In this document: positions 20,898-33,511 of the stretch, piece by piece | Numbering within the stretch: position 1 is the stretch's first letter | Layout of the letters: every line of letters begins with the position of its first letter | IMG/VR virus record: IMGVR_UViG_3300035070_002537 | Coordinates: 1 to 37,458 of that record | Length of the DNA stretch: 37,458 bases | Origin: a virus | Reading direction: 5' to 3' (one strand) | The notes under the pieces: model-generated | Seen by the model: the letters and a program-made list of their open reading frames with translations, nothing else | The model's database searches: none | What the model was told of the DNA's origin: nothing | Translations under genes and position numbers: made by a program

Positions 20898-21320
20898 TCA
20901 ACTCAACGTAATAAAATTGCCGGTGAAATCAATGGTGTATGTCTCGCCAGTGGTCATCGAGACAACAGATCCGTTGTCATAATATCCTATCAGATCTTTA
21001 TTTGTTGCCGTATTATCCACTACATACACATAACGAAAATCTGCAACAGTTCCAGTCGCTGACAGCACCAAATCATTTAACACCAGCGCATAGGTTCCAG
21101 ATGTTTGCGCACTGGAACTAGTTGTTAATATTCTGCTAGATAGGTTTGTGTAAGATATTACTGTAACTGTTGCCAGCACTGCCGCTGCCGTGGATGCTTG
21201 CACACCGTCCGTTGTCGGATCTGTATTAGATAGCTCAATAATTAGCTGATTTGACCCAAGATTATGCACACCCTCCGGCAAATGCTCAGCAAAGCCGTTT
21301 ATTTTAGTAAGAGCTGTCAT
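20898..21320 (-). CDS. Beta-rich small virion protein (140 aa)
   Basis: After a short helix (I-N-G-F-A-E-H-L-P-E-G-V-H) come Thr/Ser/Val-rich strands (T-A-A-A-V-L-A-T-V-T-V-I; Y-A-L-V-L-N-D-L-V-L-S-A-T-G) and an F-T-G-N-F-I-T-L-S end. This resembles minor capsid or decoration proteins of other phages in general style, but I cannot name a family. The start overlaps the upstream coiled-coil gene by ATGA. Confidence 0.58.
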   Translation of the reverse strand: MTALTKINGFAEHLPEGVHNLGSNQLIIELSNTDPTTDGVQASTAAAVLATVTVISYTNLSSRILTTSSSAQTSGTYALVLNDLVLSATGTVADFRYVYVVDNTATNKDLIGYYDNGSVVSMTTGETYTIDFTGNFITLS

Positions 21321-22877: not shown

Positions 22878-23063
22878 TTAATAAATGCCTCTTTCACCAC
22901 GTCTCATTGAGTGATCCGTATAGTTTCCTTCGCACCCACATTTACAGCCAACCAACTCACGAGGATAATACCCGGTTTTTGACTTTTCACCTTCCGCGCA
23001 ATGCTGAATTTTTCCACCGTTCCTCAGGAACTCTTCAACCTGGCTTGCAACTTGATCTTTCAT
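22878..23063 (-). CDS. Small Cys-rich early protein (61 aa)
   Basis: The N-terminus is a helix with V-E-E-F-L-R-N-G-G-K-I-Q-H-C. The second half carries G-C-K-C-G-C-E-G-N-Y-T-D-H-S-M-R-R, giving cysteines at 22, 40, 42 and 44. Small phage proteins with a V-E-x-F-L-x-x-G-G start are thought to be regulators, but their partners are unknown. A GGAGAT ribosome site is correctly placed. It is the first gene behind the matched promoter at 23,099-23,144. Confidence 0.62.
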   Translation of the reverse strand: MKDQVASQVEEFLRNGGKIQHCAEGEKSKTGYYPRELVGCKCGCEGNYTDHSMRRGERGIY

Positions 23064-23144: not shown

Positions 23145-23170
23145 AAAAACATAATCAAATAACAAATTTT

Positions 23171-23271
23171 AGCTGCTTAGTGCTAAATAGTGTCAGGATA
23201 GTGAGACAAAACTGCTCTACAACCCGCGCCAGCTGTGAGGTTAGTCTAAATAGTCAGATTAGCTAAAGATA
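23171..23271 (+). repeat. Left arm of origin-like inverted repeat
   Basis: It carries AATAGTG at 23,186 and GATAGTG at 23,197 (11-base spacing), AACCCGCGCC at 23,221-23,230, then TTAGTC/ATAGTC nine bases apart and GATTAGCTAAAGA. All of these elements recur in reverse complement at 23,530-23,630. Confidence 0.8.
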
Positions 23272-23400
23272 ATATCATAAAAAAATCAGCTAACATGCTA
23301 AAAATTAGCTAAGTCATTGAAATATATAACGATAGTGCTGGATAGTGACAGGATAGTGTCGATAAGTTATTGATTTATATAACGATAGTCTGAATAGTAG

Positions 23401-23419
23401 GATAGTATAAGATACTATC
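23401..23419. repeat. Perfect hairpin GATAGTAT-AAG-ATACTATC
   Basis: An eight-base inverted repeat with a three-base centre lies in the middle of the origin-like region and reuses the ATAGT word of the iterons. No T-tract follows, so it is more likely a protein-binding site or origin structure than a terminator. Confidence 0.7.
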
Positions 23420-23529
23420 TAAAAAGAGGTGTGGTTTTTAATTATCTATATTATAGATGTGGTTATACCTACCAATATCTCTATATTATATATATATATA
23501 TATAGATCTATAGTAAGTTAGTTTCTAAC

Positions 23530-23630
23530 TTGTCTTTAGCTAATCTGACTATCCTGACTATCGTTAGCATTGGCGCGGGTTACAGAGCGATTTTCTTCAC
23601 TATTCTGTCACTATTCAGCACTAACTAGCC
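23530..23630 (-). repeat. Right arm of origin-like inverted repeat
   Basis: Read on the minus strand it gives TTAGTGCTGAATAGTGACAG, a second ATAGTGA 11 bases on, CGCTCTGTAACCCGCGCCA, then two ATAGTC copies nine bases apart and AGATTAGCTAAAGA. This follows the left arm element by element. The arms differ by point changes and small indels. Confidence 0.8.
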
Positions 23631-23634
23631 AGTT

Positions 23635-23669
23635 TCCAAAAAGAACAAAACCAGCGCGAGGGCTGGTTT
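23635..23669 (-). terminator. Terminator after the primase gene
   Basis: Minus-strand reading: AAACCAGC and GCTGGTTT form a perfect eight-base-pair stem around a six-base loop, followed by TGTTCTTTTT. It lies 33 bases after the primase stop and would shield the origin-like region from leftward transcription. Confidence 0.75.
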
Positions 23670-23701
23670 CAGTGGTTACTATAGCATTTGTGGCGTATGT
23701 G

Positions 23702-25978
23702 TCAACAAGCAAAATACCTATCTACCGGTTTTTTATTTGCTGGGTGCTGATCCTGCACTATGTGCAACAAATTGTTATCAACCAGGGATTTTACGCCACG
23801 CTCGACGGCAGCGCGTTTGTGCGGCCTGCATCGATTAACGATGACGCCCATTGTTTCGCCGTGGTCTTTTGTGACGCATGACATAATACGCGCTAAAACA
23901 GCATCTGAAGCGTTTTTGTCGTGCTCCTGCACGTTAGCATGGGCGAGCATTAGTTTATGCTCAACATCGAGCATGGCGAGCTTATACGCATATCTAACAT
24001 GCTCAGACTCTCTAACCCCTGTTGGCGCGGCTAATATTGTGCTTATCTTTGCGCATAACTCATAACCTCGGCGTGGGATCGCCTCCAACCCTGACCGGCC
24101 TTTGTGCAGCTCAGCCAGATCCCAAAATTTTTGATAAACCTGGTCAAGCATGCCTGCCGCCTCGCTTGTCGTTAGTATTTTTATGCGATCGCCAAAATAC
24201 TCTATCCTGTCCTCACCAAGGACAGAGCATTCTCCTGGCGCCACCAGGCCAATTATTTTTAATCTGAGATTTTCCGGCATATCGGGTTTTTTAAAATGCT
24301 TTTTGCGTTGAGGGTTAGTCTCCAGCTCACTAAAAATCAACGCACGCGACATAAAACCGTTTGTTGCTTGCTCAAAATCCATCAATCCGTTAAATGTCAC
24401 TGGTGTGGTAAAACCGATCATTGACAAAAAAGGGCGCTCTAAGCCATGCTCTATGTTGTCTAGTGCGTGCTCCAGCTGTTTTACTCTGCGAGTGTGGCGG
24501 CCACCTGGATCATCGTTTTCTGAGATTTTTTTATTACACTGCGACATTTCGCCAAGCAATATTTTTTTAACCTCATCCCTAACATCGCCGCTAACAGGCA
24601 TAAAACCTGTGGCTTTTGAGTAGGCCATCATGATGATGCCCAGCAAATCTTCTAAATAAGACGCCCCGCCCTTGGTTTGCGCGTTGATTATCTTTTTTAC
24701 AGTGATACCCAGCTCGTCAATCATATAGCTGCACATCTGATGCCTAAGCAAATTCCTGACGACTTCCTGACCCGACTTCATTGCGCCATGCATTGCTGGC
24801 GTTAGCTCACCGGCGCGCATTATCTGCATGTATGCTTGCTGCACAGCCTCTTTGCCGGTAGATGACCCGGACACGCAAAACGCCAGCAGATTGGTTGATA
24901 TATTATCATGCGTATCCTCGTATCGCAGACCACACAGGTTGCCGACCGCAACCAGGGCAGCGGCGACAGCTAGCGACTCTCGTGGATAGAGGCATTGACT
25001 ATTGATCCACGCGCATACCTCGCCGACAAAACCCGGAGGCCGCTTTATGTCCACGTTATTTGTGTCAATGTCTCCTGTATCGTCTACGGAGTCAAAAACT
25101 GCATCGCTGATAAACGTCACTGACTCCCAAGGTGCCACCCATCCGCCATAAACGGCATGGTGTATCAGCGTACCTAGCGTGGCAGGCGTGGCCGATTTAC
25201 CAAAACTGTGCCAGCGCCTGGGCATCTCGGACGGGTTATATTTGTCGCTACGCTGGCTCCACTCATCCCATAAATCGTAGCCGGTACCACCTGTCCCATG
25301 GTGTATTGCCATGCCGATCAGTAACCAAAACTCATAATCAACATCTTTGTTTTGGATAAATTTTAACAAATCACGTATGTCTTCAATCGTCATATCGACT
25401 GTATGGCCGTTGTGCGTAGTCCTGTGTGTTGCCGGTTTTGCGAGTAGATCAAGCAACGCTTTTGGCGCTGGTGTTATATCGGCTGGCGATCCATACAAAA
25501 CTTCGTAAGTATTTCCGCTCGCGTGCAACGATCCCGGACCGACAACAAAACCACTACTCTTAAAATCAATCCCGTCATAGTCGTGGTGATGCTGTACTAA
25601 AGCCACGTCCGGAGGGACGCTAAAATACAGGTGTTTACTGGCACCACCAGACCCGGTTTTAACAATAAGTCCGGCCCCGGCAATCTCCGGCACAGCCTCG
25701 AGCAACACTACGTATGAGTCTGCGCCGCCATTGCGCTCATCAACGTCAATCACTAGCAGTCCGGCACACAAAACGCCGTACCCGGTGCTAAACTGGCCCA
25801 TCAGCTCCATTGTTTCCAGCTGGTCGTCAGACCACAATGGCGAGTGTTGCCAGTTTGCCGCAATCGGGTGTTTTCCGGGCACTGGACAATCCACACGCCC
25901 GCATGTGCACTGTCCGTTTTTGACTGGGTTTAACCCAAAAACACGATATCCAGAATAAATAAAGTCGTTATATATCAT
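23702..25978 (-). CDS. Primase-polymerase/helicase replication protein (758 aa)
   Basis: An N-terminal archaeo-eukaryotic-type prim-pol domain (about 1-185) has C-T-C-G-R-V-D-C and the catalytic L-L-V-I-D-V-D-E-R (77-82). It also has S-G-G-A-S-K-H-L-Y-F and G-F-V-V-G-P-G-S. A PriCT-like helical part follows (about 195-275). The C-terminal half looks like a DUF3987-type helicase, with S-G-S-S-T-G-K-E (370-377) as Walker A and M-I-D-E-L-G (419-424) as Walker B, ending in a winged-helix-like tail. It should open the origin, unwind DNA and make primers. It is translationally coupled (ATGA) to the Cro-like gene and lies next to the origin-like region. Confidence 0.85.
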   Translation of the reverse strand: MIYNDFIYSGYRVFGLNPVKNGQCTCGRVDCPVPGKHPIAANWQHSPLWSDDQLETMELMGQFSTGYGVLCAGLLVIDVDERNGGADSYVVLLEAVPEIAGAGLIVKTGSGGASKHLYFSVPPDVALVQHHHDYDGIDFKSSGFVVGPGSLHASGNTYEVLYGSPADITPAPKALLDLLAKPATHRTTHNGHTVDMTIEDIRDLLKFIQNKDVDYEFWLLIGMAIHHGTGGTGYDLWDEWSQRSDKYNPSEMPRRWHSFGKSATPATLGTLIHHAVYGGWVAPWESVTFISDAVFDSVDDTGDIDTNNVDIKRPPGFVGEVCAWINSQCLYPRESLAVAAALVAVGNLCGLRYEDTHDNISTNLLAFCVSGSSTGKEAVQQAYMQIMRAGELTPAMHGAMKSGQEVVRNLLRHQMCSYMIDELGITVKKIINAQTKGGASYLEDLLGIIMMAYSKATGFMPVSGDVRDEVKKILLGEMSQCNKKISENDDPGGRHTRRVKQLEHALDNIEHGLERPFLSMIGFTTPVTFNGLMDFEQATNGFMSRALIFSELETNPQRKKHFKKPDMPENLRLKIIGLVAPGECSVLGEDRIEYFGDRIKILTTSEAAGMLDQVYQKFWDLAELHKGRSGLEAIPRRGYELCAKISTILAAPTGVRESEHVRYAYKLAMLDVEHKLMLAHANVQEHDKNASDAVLARIMSCVTKDHGETMGVIVNRCRPHKRAAVERGVKSLVDNNLLHIVQDQHPANKKPVDRYFAC

Positions 25979-26148
25979 AAATTCCCCGCACTTACTTTGA
26001 GTTTGCCGCCTGTCTTTACCTGGATCTCATATTGCTTGCTTTTTGGTGGGTACTCACCCCACTTATAGATGGCGTGTGGCCATATATCTAACGCCGTGGC
26101 CAGTTCTTTAATGCCGCCAAAAAAATCTATCGCTTGCTGTGTCTTCAT
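25975..26148 (-). CDS. Cro-like transcriptional regulator (57 aa)
   Basis: I start at 26,148 (M-K-T-Q-Q-A-I-D-F-F), which has AAGGA nine bases upstream. A longer frame to 26,184 would begin inside the promoter. The F-F-G-G-I-K-E-L-A-T-A-L-D-I-W-P-H-A-I-Y-K-W helix-turn-helix is typical of lambda Cro/CII-style small repressors, and Y-K-W-G-E-Y-P-P is the usual recognition-helix end. It is the first gene leftward from the divergent switch and probably binds the palindrome there. There is no partner CI repressor in the window. Confidence 0.82.
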   Translation of the reverse strand: MKTQQAIDFFGGIKELATALDIWPHAIYKWGEYPPKSKQYEIQVKTGGKLKVSAGNL

Positions 26149-26177
26149 ACTTTTTAATCCTTTTGTTAATAAATTTG

Positions 26178-26206
26178 TTGACAATACTATAACGCGTTAT
26201 TAGTAT
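26178..26206 (+). promoter_or_regulatory. Rightward promoter for the recombination/early operon
   Basis: A consensus -35 TTGACA (26,178-26,183), 17 bases, then -10 TAGTAT (26,201-26,206). The first gene starts at 26,251 behind GAGGAGAT. This is the best sigma-70-like promoter in the window. Confidence 0.85.
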
Positions 26207-26250: not shown

Positions 26251-27006
26251 ATGAGCATATTGAGCTCTATTTCAAAGCCCGTTGACCGTCCGGTCATTGG
26301 CACAATTATAGGCGATGCAGGTCTAGGTAAAACCAGTCTGGCATGCACCTTTCCAAAACCCATCATTATCAGAGCAGAGGACGGTTTACAGGCGATCCCA
26401 TCCGACAAGCGACCTGATGCTTTCCCCGTCATACACAAAGAGTCCCAACTCTGGGATCAGTTGATCGCACTACTGCAGGAGCAGCACGACTATAAAACCG
26501 TTGTGATAGACTCAGTAACAGCGTTAGAGAGGCTGTTCATTCAACACGTAGTTGATAGTGATCCCAAAAACCCGCGCACGATTAACCAAGCATTAGGCGG
26601 TTATGGCGCAGGATTGGCAGCGGTTGGCGCTATGCACCAGCGCGTAAGAAAAGCGGCTGGCATGCTTAATGAGCGTAAAAACATGAACGTCGTCTTTGTC
26701 GCACACGCTGACACTGAAACAATCGAACTGCCAGATCAAGATCCGTACACACGCTACAATCTGCGGCTTGGTAAACGTAGTTCCGCGCCGTATGTCGATG
26801 ATTCTGACTTTGTGGGGTTCCTGAAACTGGAAACTTTTACAACAGGCGATGGCGAGCGCAAAAAAGCCATAAGCGATGGCACGAGGGTTTTAGTCACCTA
26901 TGCAACCGCTGCCAGCGTGAGCAAAAACCGCTACGGGATCACAGAAGACTTAATCGTTAAACAGGGCGAAAACCCACTTGTAAATTATATCGGAGCATTG
27001 AAATGA
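26251..27006 (+). CDS. Sak4-like RecA-fold ATPase (251 aa)
   Basis: This is a small P-loop ATPase with Walker A G-D-A-G-L-G-K-T (21-28) and Walker B T-V-V-I-D-S (83-88). The G-L-G-K-T form and the single-domain length fit the Sak4/AAA_24 group of phage recombination proteins, which act with an SSB to anneal or exchange single strands. It opens the rightward operon, overlaps the SSB-like gene by ATGA and is followed by a YqaJ exonuclease. Together they make a complete recombination module. Confidence 0.82.
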   Translation: MSILSSISKPVDRPVIGTIIGDAGLGKTSLACTFPKPIIIRAEDGLQAIPSDKRPDAFPVIHKESQLWDQLIALLQEQHDYKTVVIDSVTALERLFIQHVVDSDPKNPRTINQALGGYGAGLAAVGAMHQRVRKAAGMLNERKNMNVVFVAHADTETIELPDQDPYTRYNLRLGKRSSAPYVDDSDFVGFLKLETFTTGDGERKKAISDGTRVLVTYATAASVSKNRYGITEDLIVKQGENPLVNYIGALK

Positions 27007-27530
27007 GTTTTTGGAATTTATCGGACAACACTGCAATTGAAAAAACCGGCGAATTTGAGTCAGGCGGCGGCGGGTTTGAGCCGTTGCCAAATAACACAGA
27101 TTGCCTGGCGGCGGTAGATGAGGCGAAGTGGGATAGCCACGAAGGTGAAGAGTATATAAGCCTTCGTTGGGTTGTCTTGAAGCCTGACGGCTACAAGGGC
27201 CGTAAGATTTTCCAGAAGATCAAAGTCAACGAGTCCGACAGCAAAAAGGCAGACAAGGCAAAGCGAATGCTTGCCGCTATTGACACCAATGCTGGCGGTA
27301 AGCTGATGGCTAGTGGTGAAGCGCCTACAGATTTGAGTTTGATGCAGTCGCTGTCTAACAAGCCGATGGTTATCAAGCTGATGATCTGGGAAATTGACGG
27401 TAAGCGCGGGAATTGGGTTTCAAAAGTCAGTCCAAAAAAGGCAGCACCTGCACCAGCACCAGTGCCAGCACCAGTGCCGGTTAAAGAAGAAGTTATTGAA
27501 TATGATGATGATGATGATATTCCATTTTAG
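27003..27530 (+). CDS. Single-stranded-DNA-binding-like protein, DUF669 type (175 aa)
   Basis: The body (about 1-140) matches the DUF669 style of phage proteins next to Sak4 genes (Y-I-S-L-R-W-V-V-L-K-P-D-G-Y-K-G-R-K-I-F). A Pro/Ala-rich linker (A-P-A-P-A-P-V-P-A-P) leads to an acidic tip, D-D-D-D-D-I-P-F. This is the classic SSB C-terminal peptide that recruits recombination and replication partners. It is probably the phage SSB. The linker is encoded by a short near-repeat of GCACCAGCACC. Confidence 0.82.
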   Translation: MSFWNLSDNTAIEKTGEFESGGGGFEPLPNNTDCLAAVDEAKWDSHEGEEYISLRWVVLKPDGYKGRKIFQKIKVNESDSKKADKAKRMLAAIDTNAGGKLMASGEAPTDLSLMQSLSNKPMVIKLMIWEIDGKRGNWVSKVSPKKAAPAPAPVPAPVPVKEEVIEYDDDDDIPF

Positions 27531-27544
27531 TCATTAACCAATCA

Positions 27545-27563
27545 TGGCCGCAATGCGCGGCCA
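27545..27563 (+). other. Perfect hairpin before the exonuclease gene
   Basis: TGGCCGC-AATGC-GCGGCCA forms a seven-base-pair GC-rich stem between the SSB-like stop and the AGGAGA ribosome site of the next gene. No T-run follows, so it is not an obvious terminator. It may stabilise mRNA or tune translation. Confidence 0.55.
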
Positions 27564-27581
27564 ACAATCAGGAGAACAATA

Positions 27582-28451
27582 TTGGAACAAAGATCAGAGG
27601 AATGGTTTGAGGCGCGTAAGTGCCGTGTTACTGGATCTGTAGTGGGCGCTATTTTAGGCCTCAATAGCTGGATGACCGCAGACGATGTGATGCGTCAAAT
27701 GGTTAGGCAGTATCATGGTGCGGATCGTGAATTTAAGGGCAATGTTGCCACTGAATACGGCTCGTTTCACGAAAACGGCGCATGCCGTGATTATGAAATG
27801 GAGACCGGAAACAGGATTGAAGAGTGCGGGTTTTTTGTGCATGAGGACTGGCTTGGAGCGTCACCGGACGGGCTGCTGGACAACGGTGGACTGATCGAAA
27901 TTAAGTGCCCGTACTCGTTGCGTGACAACAAGCACCCTATCTTTAAAACACCAGAACAACAGCCGCACTATTACGCACAGATGCAAATTGAGATGTTTTG
28001 TGCTGGTCGCCAGTGGTGCCATTTTTACCAGTGGACACCGTTTGCAACCAGTTTGGAAACTGTGTTTAGAGATGATGAGTGGCTGATTCATAACGTGCCG
28101 ATACTGCGCAAATTTTATGATGATTATCTTGTTGAGCGTCAGCCAGTTAACGCTAAAAAACATCTTGAAGAGAAGGTGAAGCAGGTGAACACGTTACGCG
28201 CAAAAAAGCTGGTAGAGGATTATCAGAAATTAACGGAGCTGATAAAAGATGCGGAGCAGCGGAAAAAGGACGTGCTTTCAGAAATGGTAGCTATCTGCGG
28301 CGAGCGAGACAGCGAGATTCACGGTCATAAGCTGACGAAAGTTAGCAGACAAGGCGCGGTTGCTTATGCGCAAGTGGTTAAAGAGCACTGCAAAGGTGTT
28401 GATTTAGAGCAGTACCGTGGGAAGCCATCTGAGTATTGGAGGTTTAGCTAA
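27582..28451 (+). CDS. YqaJ-type viral recombinase/exonuclease (289 aa)
   Basis: The start codon is TTG at 27,582, chosen because AGGAGA lies a few bases upstream and the family opening (E-Q-R-S-E-E-W-F-E-A-R-K) begins there. Nuclease residues are visible as G-A-S-P-D-G (D96) and L-I-E-I-K (E106, K108), the lambda-exonuclease/PD-(D/E)XK pattern. The C-terminal third is a charged coiled coil. It resects double-stranded ends to give the single strands used by the Sak4 and SSB proteins. The stop overlaps the next start. Confidence 0.88.
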   Translation: MEQRSEEWFEARKCRVTGSVVGAILGLNSWMTADDVMRQMVRQYHGADREFKGNVATEYGSFHENGACRDYEMETGNRIEECGFFVHEDWLGASPDGLLDNGGLIEIKCPYSLRDNKHPIFKTPEQQPHYYAQMQIEMFCAGRQWCHFYQWTPFATSLETVFRDDEWLIHNVPILRKFYDDYLVERQPVNAKKHLEEKVKQVNTLRAKKLVEDYQKLTELIKDAEQRKKDVLSEMVAICGERDSEIHGHKLTKVSRQGAVAYAQVVKEHCKGVDLEQYRGKPSEYWRFS

Positions 28452-30187
28452 TGCTCCGCCCATACCAACAAGCCGCACACGATGCGGCTATTTCAACCAT
28501 AAAAAAATGCCTCGACCCTGTGTTGATCGAGGCGGCAACCGGCAGCGGGAAAAGCCACATCATTGCAGAGATAGCAAAAACGCTGCACAAAGTAAGCAAC
28601 GGTAAAAAAATATTATGTTTAGCACCGAGCGCCGAACTTGTTGTCCAAAACCGAGAAAAATACCTGGCAACCGGAAATCCTGCTAGTGTTTTTTCAGCGT
28701 CAGCAGGTGGCGCTTGTTTGCGTCATCCAGTGGTTTTTGGCACACCAGGCACCGTTAAAAATAAAATAGAAAGATTCGGCCCAGAGTTTTGCGCTATTGT
28801 GTTAGATGAGGCGCACAGGATAACGCCAACGGTTATTACAATCATAGAATCAATACAGTCTGTTAATCCAAACCTGCGGATTATTGGATTGTCTGCAACG
28901 CCTTACCGCCTTGGAAGCGGGTATATCTATGATTTCGATGAAAAAATGCGAAAGATGGACGAAACAATAGATCCATATTTTAAGCAGCGTGTTTATACTG
29001 TTGGTGCGCATGAGCTTATATGTCAGGGGTTTCTAACGCGTCCAGTCATCGGCGGGATAAACGCTGAAAACTACGACACAAAAAACATGCAGTTAAACAG
29101 CATGGGCAAGTTTAACCAAGCTGATATAGATCAAGCTTTTCACGGGCAGGGGCGCAAAACCGCGAAGATCATCGCGGATATTGTTGACCAGTCGCGTGAT
29201 AGGTGTGGCGTTATGATATTTGCAGCGACAATACAGCATGCTAATGAGTGCCTTGAAAGTTTGCCGCCTTCGCTGTCGGCCATTGTGACTGGTGGCACCA
29301 GCAAAAAAGAAAGGGCGGCGATACTGAAAAGATTTAAGTCACGGCAGATTAAATATCTAGTTAACGTGTCTGTGTTAACGACTGGGTTCGACGCCCCTCA
29401 TGTTGATGTTGTTGCGATACTGCGAGCCACTGAGTCTGTGGCATTACTGCAACAAATAATAGGGCGCGGGTTGCGCATAGATAGCGGTAAAACTGACTGC
29501 TTGATACTGGACTATGCGGAAAACGTTGATAGGCACTGTCCAGACGGGGATCTGTTTGACCCTGACATTACAGCAAAAAAGAAAGGTGACGGCGGCGCAC
29601 TGCCGGCTAAATGCCCAATGTGCAACTATGAAAACCTGTTTGCTGCGAGGCATAACGATGACGGGTTTGCGGTTGATGAGTTTGGCTATTTTGTTGATTT
29701 ATCAGGGCATAGAATAGAGACCGAGTTTGGTGAAATGCCAGCACACCACGGGAGGCGCTGTAATGGTGAATTACTGATAGCTGGCAGGTTTACCAGGTGC
29801 GCTTACAAATGGACGTTTAAAAAATGCCCAGAATGCGATGCTGAAAACGATATTTCGGCACGGTATTGCAGTGCGTGCAAGTGCGAAATTGTTGACCCAA
29901 ACGAAAAACTGCGGATTGAATTTAAAAAACTGAAAAAAGATCCTACAAGATTGCAGACTGACAGCGTTGTAGAGTGGTCGTACTGCGAAACAATTAGTAG
30001 AGCCGGTAACGAGGTGTTAAAAGCGACATACAGAACAGAGCACAGAACATTTGAGGTGTGGTATAACGCAAAAATGAAACGTGATCTTGATCTTTTTTTA
30101 GATGCAAAAGAGCGGGGCATAAAAACTATCACATACAAAAAAGATACTGATTCACGGTTTTATAAAATTTACGCATACAACCAATAG
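28451..30187 (+). CDS. SF2 DEAH-type helicase with zinc-ribbon tail (578 aa)
   Basis: Helicase motifs are complete: Q-like L-R-P-Y-Q, Walker A E-A-A-T-G-S-G-K-S (27-35), D-E-A-H (119-122), L-S-A-T-P (147-151), T-T-G-F-D-A-P (310-316) and Q-Q-I-I-G-R-G-L-R (334-342). After it come cysteine pairs C388/C391 and C459/C462 with C473/C476, which read as zinc ribbons. Related phage helicases act in replication or recombination. The gene shares one base with the exonuclease gene and belongs to the rightward operon. Confidence 0.9.
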   Translation: MLRPYQQAAHDAAISTIKKCLDPVLIEAATGSGKSHIIAEIAKTLHKVSNGKKILCLAPSAELVVQNREKYLATGNPASVFSASAGGACLRHPVVFGTPGTVKNKIERFGPEFCAIVLDEAHRITPTVITIIESIQSVNPNLRIIGLSATPYRLGSGYIYDFDEKMRKMDETIDPYFKQRVYTVGAHELICQGFLTRPVIGGINAENYDTKNMQLNSMGKFNQADIDQAFHGQGRKTAKIIADIVDQSRDRCGVMIFAATIQHANECLESLPPSLSAIVTGGTSKKERAAILKRFKSRQIKYLVNVSVLTTGFDAPHVDVVAILRATESVALLQQIIGRGLRIDSGKTDCLILDYAENVDRHCPDGDLFDPDITAKKKGDGGALPAKCPMCNYENLFAARHNDDGFAVDEFGYFVDLSGHRIETEFGEMPAHHGRRCNGELLIAGRFTRCAYKWTFKKCPECDAENDISARYCSACKCEIVDPNEKLRIEFKKLKKDPTRLQTDSVVEWSYCETISRAGNEVLKATYRTEHRTFEVWYNAKMKRDLDLFLDAKERGIKTITYKKDTDSRFYKIYAYNQ

Positions 30188-30887: not shown

Positions 30888-31313
30888 ATGAAAATACAAG
30901 AAACGGATTGGATTGAGTGGGACGCATCGGGAAAAAAATGCGGAGACCTTCCACAAGGCATTACTGATGGCACGATGGTTAAGGTCGCATTTGATAGCGG
31001 TTCTACTGGCGATATATTGCAGGCCGGTGAGTTGTATTGGGGTGATTCTCTGGCTGGGCCTATCAAAAAATACAGGATTTGCACCTTAGTCCCAGACACA
31101 CCAGCGAACACAAACAAATACAGCCGCATGATTGCGCCAGGCGTATATGTTGATGTGTACGATGTACTAAAAGCTTTTGGCGTTAAGTGTCCAGCATTAC
31201 AACACTTGATTAAAAAAGCTTTGGCAGCTGGAAATAGAGGCCATAAAGATTTGTTGACCGACTTGGACGACATTATAGACAGCGCACACAGGGCGAAGGA
31301 GCTTGCAAAGTGA
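30888..31313 (+). CDS. Conserved phage protein upstream of the helicase-methylase (141 aa)
   Basis: The first half is beta-rich (W-I-E-W-D; G-T-M-V-K-V-A-F-D-S-G). The second half is helical with V-Y-D-V-L-K-A-F-G-V-K-C-P-A-L-Q-H-L-I-K-K and L-D-D-I-I-D-S-A-H-R-A-K-E-L. The C-P-A-L-Q-H-x-x-K-K-x-L-x-x-G segment recurs in small early proteins of many phages, with unknown function. It is the first gene from promoter 3, has a GGAG ribosome site and overlaps the next start by ATGA. Confidence 0.65.
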   Translation: MKIQETDWIEWDASGKKCGDLPQGITDGTMVKVAFDSGSTGDILQAGELYWGDSLAGPIKKYRICTLVPDTPANTNKYSRMIAPGVYVDVYDVLKAFGVKCPALQHLIKKALAAGNRGHKDLLTDLDDIIDSAHRAKELAK

Positions 31314-33511
31314 ATTATGAATCTTTCATAAAAACAAAAGAGTTTATACCGGTTGTTTCTGGGTTTCAGGTTGATGTTTCTACACTGAATAGCAATCTGT
31401 TTGATTTTCAGATTGCCATAGTTGAATGGGCATTAAAGCGAGGGCGAGCCGCATTATTTGCAAACACAGGGCTAGGAAAAACAATAATGCAAATGTCATG
31501 GGCTGATGCTGTTGTAAACAAAACTGATGATCCAGTGCTGGTTGCCGCGCCGTTAGCGGTTGCGAAACAGTCAGTAAAAGAGGCTGCAAAGTTTGGCATA
31601 GAAGTTGAATATGTTAGAGATCATCCAAGCGTTTTAAAAAGCAAAATTTATATCACAAACTATGAAATGCTTGATAATTTCAACATGGATGACTTTTCTG
31701 GGATTGTATTAGATGAGTCTAGCATCATTAAAAACAGGGATGGAAAGACTAGAAAAGCAATCATCGATAGTTGTTTGAATGTGCCTTACAAGCTTTCATG
31801 CACTGCAACGCCAAGCCCTAACGATTACATGGAGCTAGGCAACCAGTGCGAGTTTTTAGGCATTATGTCTATGACTGAAATGTTAGCCATGTTTTTTACG
31901 CACGATGGCGGTGAAACCAGTAAGTGGCGATTAAAAGGGCATGGTGCGCGTAAATTTTGGGAATGGATGTCAACATGGGCGATCACGATAACAAATCCTA
32001 GCGATATAGGTTTTGATGGTTCGCGATATGTGCTAGACCCATATTTGATGCACGAGCATCAAGTGAAATCGCCAGTTTCTGACAATCAGTTATTTGCTGA
32101 TATTGCTCAAACACTAACGGAAAGACGCGCAGCAAAAAAAGCAACCGTAGATGCAAGGGTTGATGAAGTTGCTAAGTTGTGCAATGAGTCAGACGAACAA
32201 TGGATAGTGTGGTGCCACACGAACGATGAATCGGCCATGCTATCTAAATCAATTATTGGAGCGGTTGAGGTTAAAGGTTCTGATTCTATTGAGCATAAAG
32301 AGTCTGCGATGCTTGGATTTTCTGACAATAATTTTAAGGTTTTAGTAAGCAAGCCTTCTATATGCGGATTTGGCATGAACTGGCAGCACTGCCGTAATAT
32401 GGCTTTTGTTGGGCTTGATGACAGCTACGAACAGATGTACCAGGCTATCAGAAGATGCTGGAGATTCGGTCAGGACAAGGTTGTTAATGTTCACATCATA
32501 ACCGCCGAATCATTGGGAGCAATAAAACAGAACATCGAACGAAAGGAAAAACAAATGGAACAAATGCAGATAGCTATGGTTGATCATATGCGAGAGTCGA
32601 TGCAGAAAGAAATAAAAAGCGCAGGGATTGAGAAAACAGATTACAACCGGAGAGTTGAATTAGGTGCTGATTTTGAAATACATAACGCTGACTGCGTGCA
32701 TTTAGCTAGTGAAATAGAATCTAATACCGTTGGGTATACTATTTTCAGCCCGCCATTTGCATCATTGTACACGTACAGCAATAGCGATTATGACATGGGT
32801 AATGTCAAAGATGATGAAGAGTTTTATAAGCAGTTTAGGTTTCTTGTCAAAGAAATGCTAAGAATAACCAAGCCTGGGCGATTGCTTTCTTTTCATTGCA
32901 TGAACCTTCCGACAAGCAAACAAAATAACGGGTTTATAGGTATTCGTGATTTCAGGGGTGAGCTAATCAGAATGTTTGTGGATGAGGGGTGGATATATCA
33001 TTCAGAGGTGTGCATCTGGAAAGACCCGGTAACAGCAATGCAACGAACAAAGGCTCTTGGCTTGCTGCACAAAACGATTAGGAAAGACAGTTCAATGAGT
33101 CGCCAGGGGATTCCTGACTTTTTAGTGACAATGCGCAAGCCTGGCGACAATGACGACCCTATCAGTCATACGCATGATGAGTTTCCTGTTAGCCTGTGGC
33201 AAAAATACGCCAGCCCTGTCTGGATGGACATTAACCCATCCAGGACTCTAAATTACAGAGATGGTCGAGATGATGACGATGAGCGCCACATTTGCCCATT
33301 GCAACTTGATGTGATCGAACGAGGGTTAGAATTGTGGAGCAAGCCTGGTGATCTTGTTTTTAGCCCATTTACAGGGATAGGGTCAGAGGGTTATTGCGCG
33401 GTAAAGGCAGGCAGAAGGTTTATCGGATCAGAACTAAAACCAAGTTATTTTGATTTGGCAATAAAAAACATTCAATCAGCATACAACACAACAATGGATC
33501 TATTCGCATGA
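31310..33511 (+). CDS. SNF2-like helicase fused to a DNA methyltransferase (733 aa)
   Basis: The N-terminal two thirds form an SF2 ATPase: Walker A A-N-T-G-L-G-K-T (51-58), D-E-S-S (135-138), T-A-T-P (165-168) and Q-A-I-R-R-C-W-R-F-G-Q (378-388). A charged linker helix (about 405-450) leads to a methyltransferase. Its catalytic S-P-P-F (480-483) comes before the cofactor motif F-S-P-F-T-G-I-G-S-E-G (684-694), the permuted order of beta-class enzymes. S-P-P-x motifs are frequent in N4-cytosine methylases, but the target base is not certain. It may protect phage DNA from restriction or mark replicated DNA. It overlaps both neighbours by ATGA. Confidence 0.85.
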   Translation: MNYESFIKTKEFIPVVSGFQVDVSTLNSNLFDFQIAIVEWALKRGRAALFANTGLGKTIMQMSWADAVVNKTDDPVLVAAPLAVAKQSVKEAAKFGIEVEYVRDHPSVLKSKIYITNYEMLDNFNMDDFSGIVLDESSIIKNRDGKTRKAIIDSCLNVPYKLSCTATPSPNDYMELGNQCEFLGIMSMTEMLAMFFTHDGGETSKWRLKGHGARKFWEWMSTWAITITNPSDIGFDGSRYVLDPYLMHEHQVKSPVSDNQLFADIAQTLTERRAAKKATVDARVDEVAKLCNESDEQWIVWCHTNDESAMLSKSIIGAVEVKGSDSIEHKESAMLGFSDNNFKVLVSKPSICGFGMNWQHCRNMAFVGLDDSYEQMYQAIRRCWRFGQDKVVNVHIITAESLGAIKQNIERKEKQMEQMQIAMVDHMRESMQKEIKSAGIEKTDYNRRVELGADFEIHNADCVHLASEIESNTVGYTIFSPPFASLYTYSNSDYDMGNVKDDEEFYKQFRFLVKEMLRITKPGRLLSFHCMNLPTSKQNNGFIGIRDFRGELIRMFVDEGWIYHSEVCIWKDPVTAMQRTKALGLLHKTIRKDSSMSRQGIPDFLVTMRKPGDNDDPISHTHDEFPVSLWQKYASPVWMDINPSRTLNYRDGRDDDDERHICPLQLDVIERGLELWSKPGDLVFSPFTGIGSEGYCAVKAGRRFIGSELKPSYFDLAIKNIQSAYNTTMDLFA

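Follow-up and report, generated by a model that had tools for sequence, protein, structure and literature searches.

A probable phage replication origin of opposed iteron clusters adjoining a Prim-Pol/MCM-like primase gene

In PICI/SaPI origins, an AT-rich region with a set of iterons on each side lies immediately 3' of the initiator gene, and in these elements primase and initiator are sometimes fused (PMC6092414). The origin of pRN1 is a stem-loop of about 100 nt situated directly 3' of the Prim-Pol helicase gene, an arrangement also predicted for phage BIP-1, and both origins are reported without iterons (PMC4234260). In SCCmec, the helicase Cch2 uses its C-terminal domain to bind iterons at a putative origin downstream of its operon, and the related Cch has been described as MCM-like (PMC7581432). 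In phage P4, a single protein, alpha, binds origin repeats through a winged helix, unwinds and primes. P4 replication also requires a second site, crr. Our literature search returned no published origin specific to the phage group described here.

The window, i.e. the whole stretch of DNA that we analysed, is a 37,458-base virus record of a tailed phage whose portal, head, scaffold and terminase genes are transcribed leftward. Approximately 640 bp of non-coding DNA separates its primase gene from the next small gene, and this gap holds an element that, judged by sequence comparison with relatives, is very probably the phage replication origin. The element and its surroundings comprise the following features:

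22878-23063, minus strand: small leftward gene, left neighbour of the non-coding gap
23127-23099, minus strand: promoter-like site at the left edge of the element (10/12, consensus match only)
23172-23272, plus strand: left inverted arm, with three ATAGT words (23187, 23198, 23250)
23310-23336, plus strand: repeat TAAGTCATTGAAATATATAACGATAGT, an IHF-like half element fused to an iteron
23332-23358, plus strand: central cluster of three iteron words set 10-11 bases apart, containing the exact 18-mer described below
23363-23375, minus strand: AATCAATAACTTA, an exact match to the IHF consensus; the window has only one other
23385-23419, plus strand: second central iteron cluster, with a hairpin at its end
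23480-23512, no strand: TA tract, probable DNA unwinding element on the stability profile
23530-23629, minus strand: right inverted arm, with four minus-strand ATAGT words (23548, 23557, 23599, 23610)
23646-23671, minus strand: intrinsic-terminator-like hairpin 3' of the primase gene (consensus match only)
23702-25978, minus strand: replication protein (primase), the proposed initiator, with Prim-Pol, PriCT-2, MCM-like AAA+ and C-terminal winged-helix domains
25975-26184, minus strand: P22-Cro-like small regulator, immediately upstream of the primase gene and overlapping it
26251-30187, plus strand: divergent replication and recombination operon (Sak4-like annealing protein, ssDNA-binding protein, YqaJ/RecE-like exonuclease, helicase), its gene order matched in Pseudoalteromonas phage H103

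The two arms (101 and 100 nt, the right one read as its reverse complement) are approximately 79% identical, with three short gaps. Their inverted self-alignment scored 132, where 200 dinucleotide shuffles averaged 31.9 and never exceeded 51, and a separate search paired them at an E-value of 1e-17, confirming the imperfect inverted copies of about 100 bases described in an earlier note on this DNA. The same independent search found no third arm copy anywhere in the genome, and a second copy of the element region is absent from it, unlike the ori and crr of P4. Repeat words, a perfect hairpin and a TA tract do lie between the arms, as had been described. Between 23065 and 23701, ATAGT occurs 16 times against 1.0 expected at the genome rate (shuffles: mean 4.0, maximum 10), and ATAGTG alone seven times against 0.16 expected. 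These words had been assigned to a central array; they are present in the centre, but the arms carry them too. The 18-mer RATAGTGWCAGRATAGTG occurs three times and nowhere else, once in the left arm, once centrally and once, in inverted orientation, in the right arm, while the perfect 8-bp hairpin GATAGTAT-AAG-ATACTATC occupies 23401-23419. The IHF-like half of TAAGTCATTGAAATATATAACGATAGT differs by one mismatch, on the minus strand, from the IHF consensus WATCAANNNNTTR.

Overall, an iteron-rich left half, made up of arm and central clusters, is followed by the TA tract and then by the inverted cluster of the right arm. In the duplex-stability profile, one of the proposed checks, the least stable 50 bp of the examined 10-kb stretch falls in this region (−0.92 kcal/mol per step, the rest of the stretch reaching −1.08 at most), and the single-strand fold of 23145-23640 has a z-score of −10.6. 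The location between a primase terminator (23671-23646, −) and a promoter (23127-23099, −) also stands, both being consensus matches only. A helical phasing of about 11 bases is not borne out: successive words are spaced by 11, 10, 11, 9, 8, 9 and 11 bases in the window and mostly by 7-11 in relatives, which leaves the argument for a shared helical face weak. GC skew, another suggested check, was uninformative and gave no support for the placement of an origin, with third-position values of 0.054 ± 0.051 for the primase gene and 0.118 ± 0.018 for the leftward genes.

The earlier statement that no named origin has this build was mistaken, given the PICI/SaPI origins (PMC6092414) and the pRN1 origin 3' of a primase-helicase gene (PMC4234260). 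As in PICI/SaPI, the site lies immediately 3' of the initiator gene, a likeness that here is one of position only, and we propose a fused primase-initiator, as some of those elements have. Unlike in PICI/SaPI, the iteron sets sit within inverted arms of roughly 100 bp, IHF-type sites lie between the clusters, and the proposed initiator is a Prim-Pol/PriCT-2/MCM-like fusion. Moreover, PICI/SaPI are satellites without their own capsid genes, whereas this phage has major head, portal, scaffold and terminase genes. By analogy, the element would work like a PICI origin that is carried by a phage, uses another initiator and additionally has long arms and IHF-type sites. Like pRN1 and BIP-1, it has a large stem-loop immediately after a replication gene of Prim-Pol/AAA+/winged-helix type; however, iterons dominate here alongside the stem-loop potential, and the helicase, called SF3 in those systems, matches MCM in our model. 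The putative SCCmec origin likewise has downstream iterons, but these are three AAGTG copies in an integrated staphylococcal element with a separate primase-polymerase. The activities combined in P4 alpha are those that we propose for the primase of this phage, although alpha has a Toprim primase (PMC4234260) where this protein has Prim-Pol PF09250.

The primase matches Prim-Pol PF09250 and PriCT-2 PF08707, both above the gathering score. In its AlphaFold model (mean pLDDT 86), the Prim-Pol domain resembles those of pRN1 ORF904 and NrS-1, and the AAA+ domain matches the MCM fold (3f8t, Z 17.8, 250 residues, 3.7 Å). Pfam gave no MCM match in the primase, only DUF3987 below threshold, and a PDB sequence search with the primase profile returned no matches. 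AAA+ domains of uncharted type, including DUF3987, are found behind such primases and are predicted helicases (PMC5862659). SF3 helicases are absent among the structural matches listed, although the domain may still be related to them. A C-terminal winged helix is predicted at about residues 690-757, in agreement with a separate model; its best match has a Z-score of 8.4 over 63 residues at 1.6 Å, with many unrelated winged-helix proteins scoring alike. On these models, the primase-helicase is the likely iteron binder, through its winged helix.

We collected relatives through the primase, from phage records first and then from viral contigs with an alignment. A nucleotide search of phage records and a single-protein scan of viral contigs found no relatives, but the alignment-based search did recover some; bacterial genomes yielded only seven related loci, all from metagenome bins. 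The relatives come mostly from metagenomic contigs. In a first set of 55 distinct primase relatives, with the window left out, we counted all 5-mers in the 700 bp 3' of the primase gene. TA/A-run low-complexity words aside, ATAGT was the most enriched (170 versus 87, z 9.3, against shuffled controls that preserve dinucleotides only), and no such signal was seen upstream of the primase in this set. A held-out set was assembled with other queries; 50 loci with at most 80% identity to any earlier primase were kept, 48 of them with enough downstream sequence. Here ATAGT was again in excess downstream (142 seen, 73.9 expected, z 9.9), with no excess in the coding control (31 versus 30.9).

At least four ATAGT words, above all of the locus's own shuffles, were found at 12 of 55 loci in the first set and 10 of 48 in the held-out set; a dense cluster of the same word adjoins the primase gene in about a quarter of distantly related phages. 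Close relatives often retain an array, with at least five downstream ATAGT words in 6/7 of the window's primase clade, so the origin reading stands against its earlier proposed refutation, absence of the array in relatives with the same primase. Phage H103, whose primase is 51% identical and whose gene order around the primase matches, has the same words in inverted clusters at the equivalent position in the gap 3' of its primase gene. When arrays of any word are considered, significant ones, in many cases built of another word, occur downstream at 26 of 56 loci (window included), versus 4/59 upstream and 3-4/59 in coding controls. About half of the relatives are without a significant downstream array, and the origins of those with no clear array may lie elsewhere.

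The enrichment of the IHF consensus was first noticed at the first-set loci with ATAGT arrays (6 versus 0.7 expected). In the held-out set it reached 22 seen against 2.4 expected downstream, with some enrichment on the upstream side of the primase as well (9 versus 1.8); promoter-like elements could add to intergenic ATAGT and IHF counts. Such sites are present in some loci only. In the window, the consensus occurs once within the element, at 23363-23375 (−), where IHF would bind. DnaA boxes are not enriched downstream of the primase, and the window's only exact box lies at 21262. At 16 loci the words tend to run in plus orientation first and then in minus orientation along the region, forming opposed clusters (p 2e-4). 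The mean fold z-score is −2.69 downstream of the primase, to which terminators contribute, versus −0.85 upstream and −0.33 in coding sequence.

In one subclade (L050, L052 and L099), the array is instead upstream, ahead of both the primase gene and the small gene before it, keeping the layout of a cluster, a TA tract and an inverted cluster. The words of these upstream arrays are ATAGT in L052 and L099 and CCAAGCAA in L050. The arrays of other members use other words (ATACACA, ACACTTA and CCAAGCAA), with the word varying by subclade. Because the array of this subclade is upstream of the primase, we conclude that its position is linked to the primase rather than to the terminase. Separately, at 2230-2720 of L010 (Vibrio phage pYD21-A), the gap on the upstream side of the primase has TTATGATCAC repeats in both orientations and is probably another origin that uses yet another word.

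The occurrence of the array on either flank of the primase argues against both a packaging site and an operator tied to the leftward operon. A cos or pac site or terminase-binding region, which repeats can mark and for which the terminase genes within about 5 kb would be suitably near, is very improbable, since the array is not tied to the terminase across relatives and is also present in H103, despite quite different virion genes. We likewise find it unlikely that the repeats are an operator cluster through which a Cro-like regulator or other repressor controls the leftward operon or the primase. A promoter-like site does lie at the left edge of the array and a P22-Cro-like gene precedes the primase, but an operator would hardly need three clusters spread over 440 bp, long arms and a TA tract well away from the promoter; the array also moves from downstream of the primase in most relatives to upstream in others with its TA core kept, and its word varies by subclade. 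Somewhat less remote, though still doubtful, is a pRN1-style origin in which the long hairpin of the arms is the recognised element, the repeats having arisen incidentally when the arm was duplicated. The strand fold (z −10.6), the strong inverted structure downstream in many relatives and the pRN1 precedent all speak for such a hairpin; however, the word is kept across relatives whose remaining arm sequence is not, and several loci, such as L042 and L044, have dense word arrays with little hairpin potential (z near 0).

We consider it likely that the element is an origin bound and opened by the neighbouring Prim-Pol/PriCT-2/MCM-like/winged-helix protein with the help of IHF. From the observed anatomy, the conservation beside this primase family, the movement with the primase, the IHF-consensus enrichment and the predicted folds, we infer origin activity, iteron binding by the winged helix, ring assembly, IHF binding and a direction of melting. 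The winged helix of the primase would bind the (R)RATAGTG/C iterons, and AAA+ rings would assemble on the oppositely oriented iteron sets flanking the TA tract, with host IHF bending the DNA between the clusters. ATP-driven remodelling would then melt the TA tract, the rings would travel outward, the Prim-Pol domain would make the first primers, and the host replicase could extend these together with the sliding-clamp protein and ssDNA-binding protein of the phage.

More tentatively, and with somewhat less than an even chance, the locus may represent a widespread phage cassette in which a Prim-Pol/MCM-like initiator with an exchangeable winged helix is paired with a PICI-style two-sided origin of iterons and IHF sites on either flank. 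Such a cassette would provide a minimal natural example of origin loading of an MCM-type helicase with no ORC-type loaders, and word and winged helix would change together. The recurrence of these arrays across a family of phages that have their own virion genes ties satellite replication to that of phages and supplies a sequence rule by which origins can be predicted in many phages not yet characterised. It also provides a compact setting in which to study DNA opening by an MCM-like primase-helicase that has no separate loader.

In most of the primase pairs compared, conservation is lowest in the winged helix. Primase pairs that share a word have winged helices somewhat more similar than their overall identity would suggest, the pairs not being independent. 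Because a partial Mantel test of word against winged helix was weak (r 0.059, 9/300 permutations), with the AAA+ domain doing as well, we do not claim coevolution of the two as shown. In L030 and L038, the primase bodies are approximately 84% identical and the winged helices 52%, and the words differ (ATACACA versus AAATAG); these loci (L030 4840-5340, L038 6250-6750) present a possible natural specificity switch.

Some further features of the genome were observed. A near-consensus promoter (11/12, with TG before the second hexamer) lies at 23705-23678 (−), at the end of the primase gene, and is aimed into the origin; its expected start falls on the terminator hairpin, and it could drive transcription across the origin. 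The 61-aa product of the small gene at 22878-23063 (−) matches the SutA RNA-polymerase-binding domain (PF20661, 30.5 bits versus a cut-off of 29.3), and this SutA-like phage protein may act on host RNA polymerase. A single open reading frame at 31310-33511 (+) combines an SNF2-type helicase region with an N6/N4 DNA methyltransferase domain.
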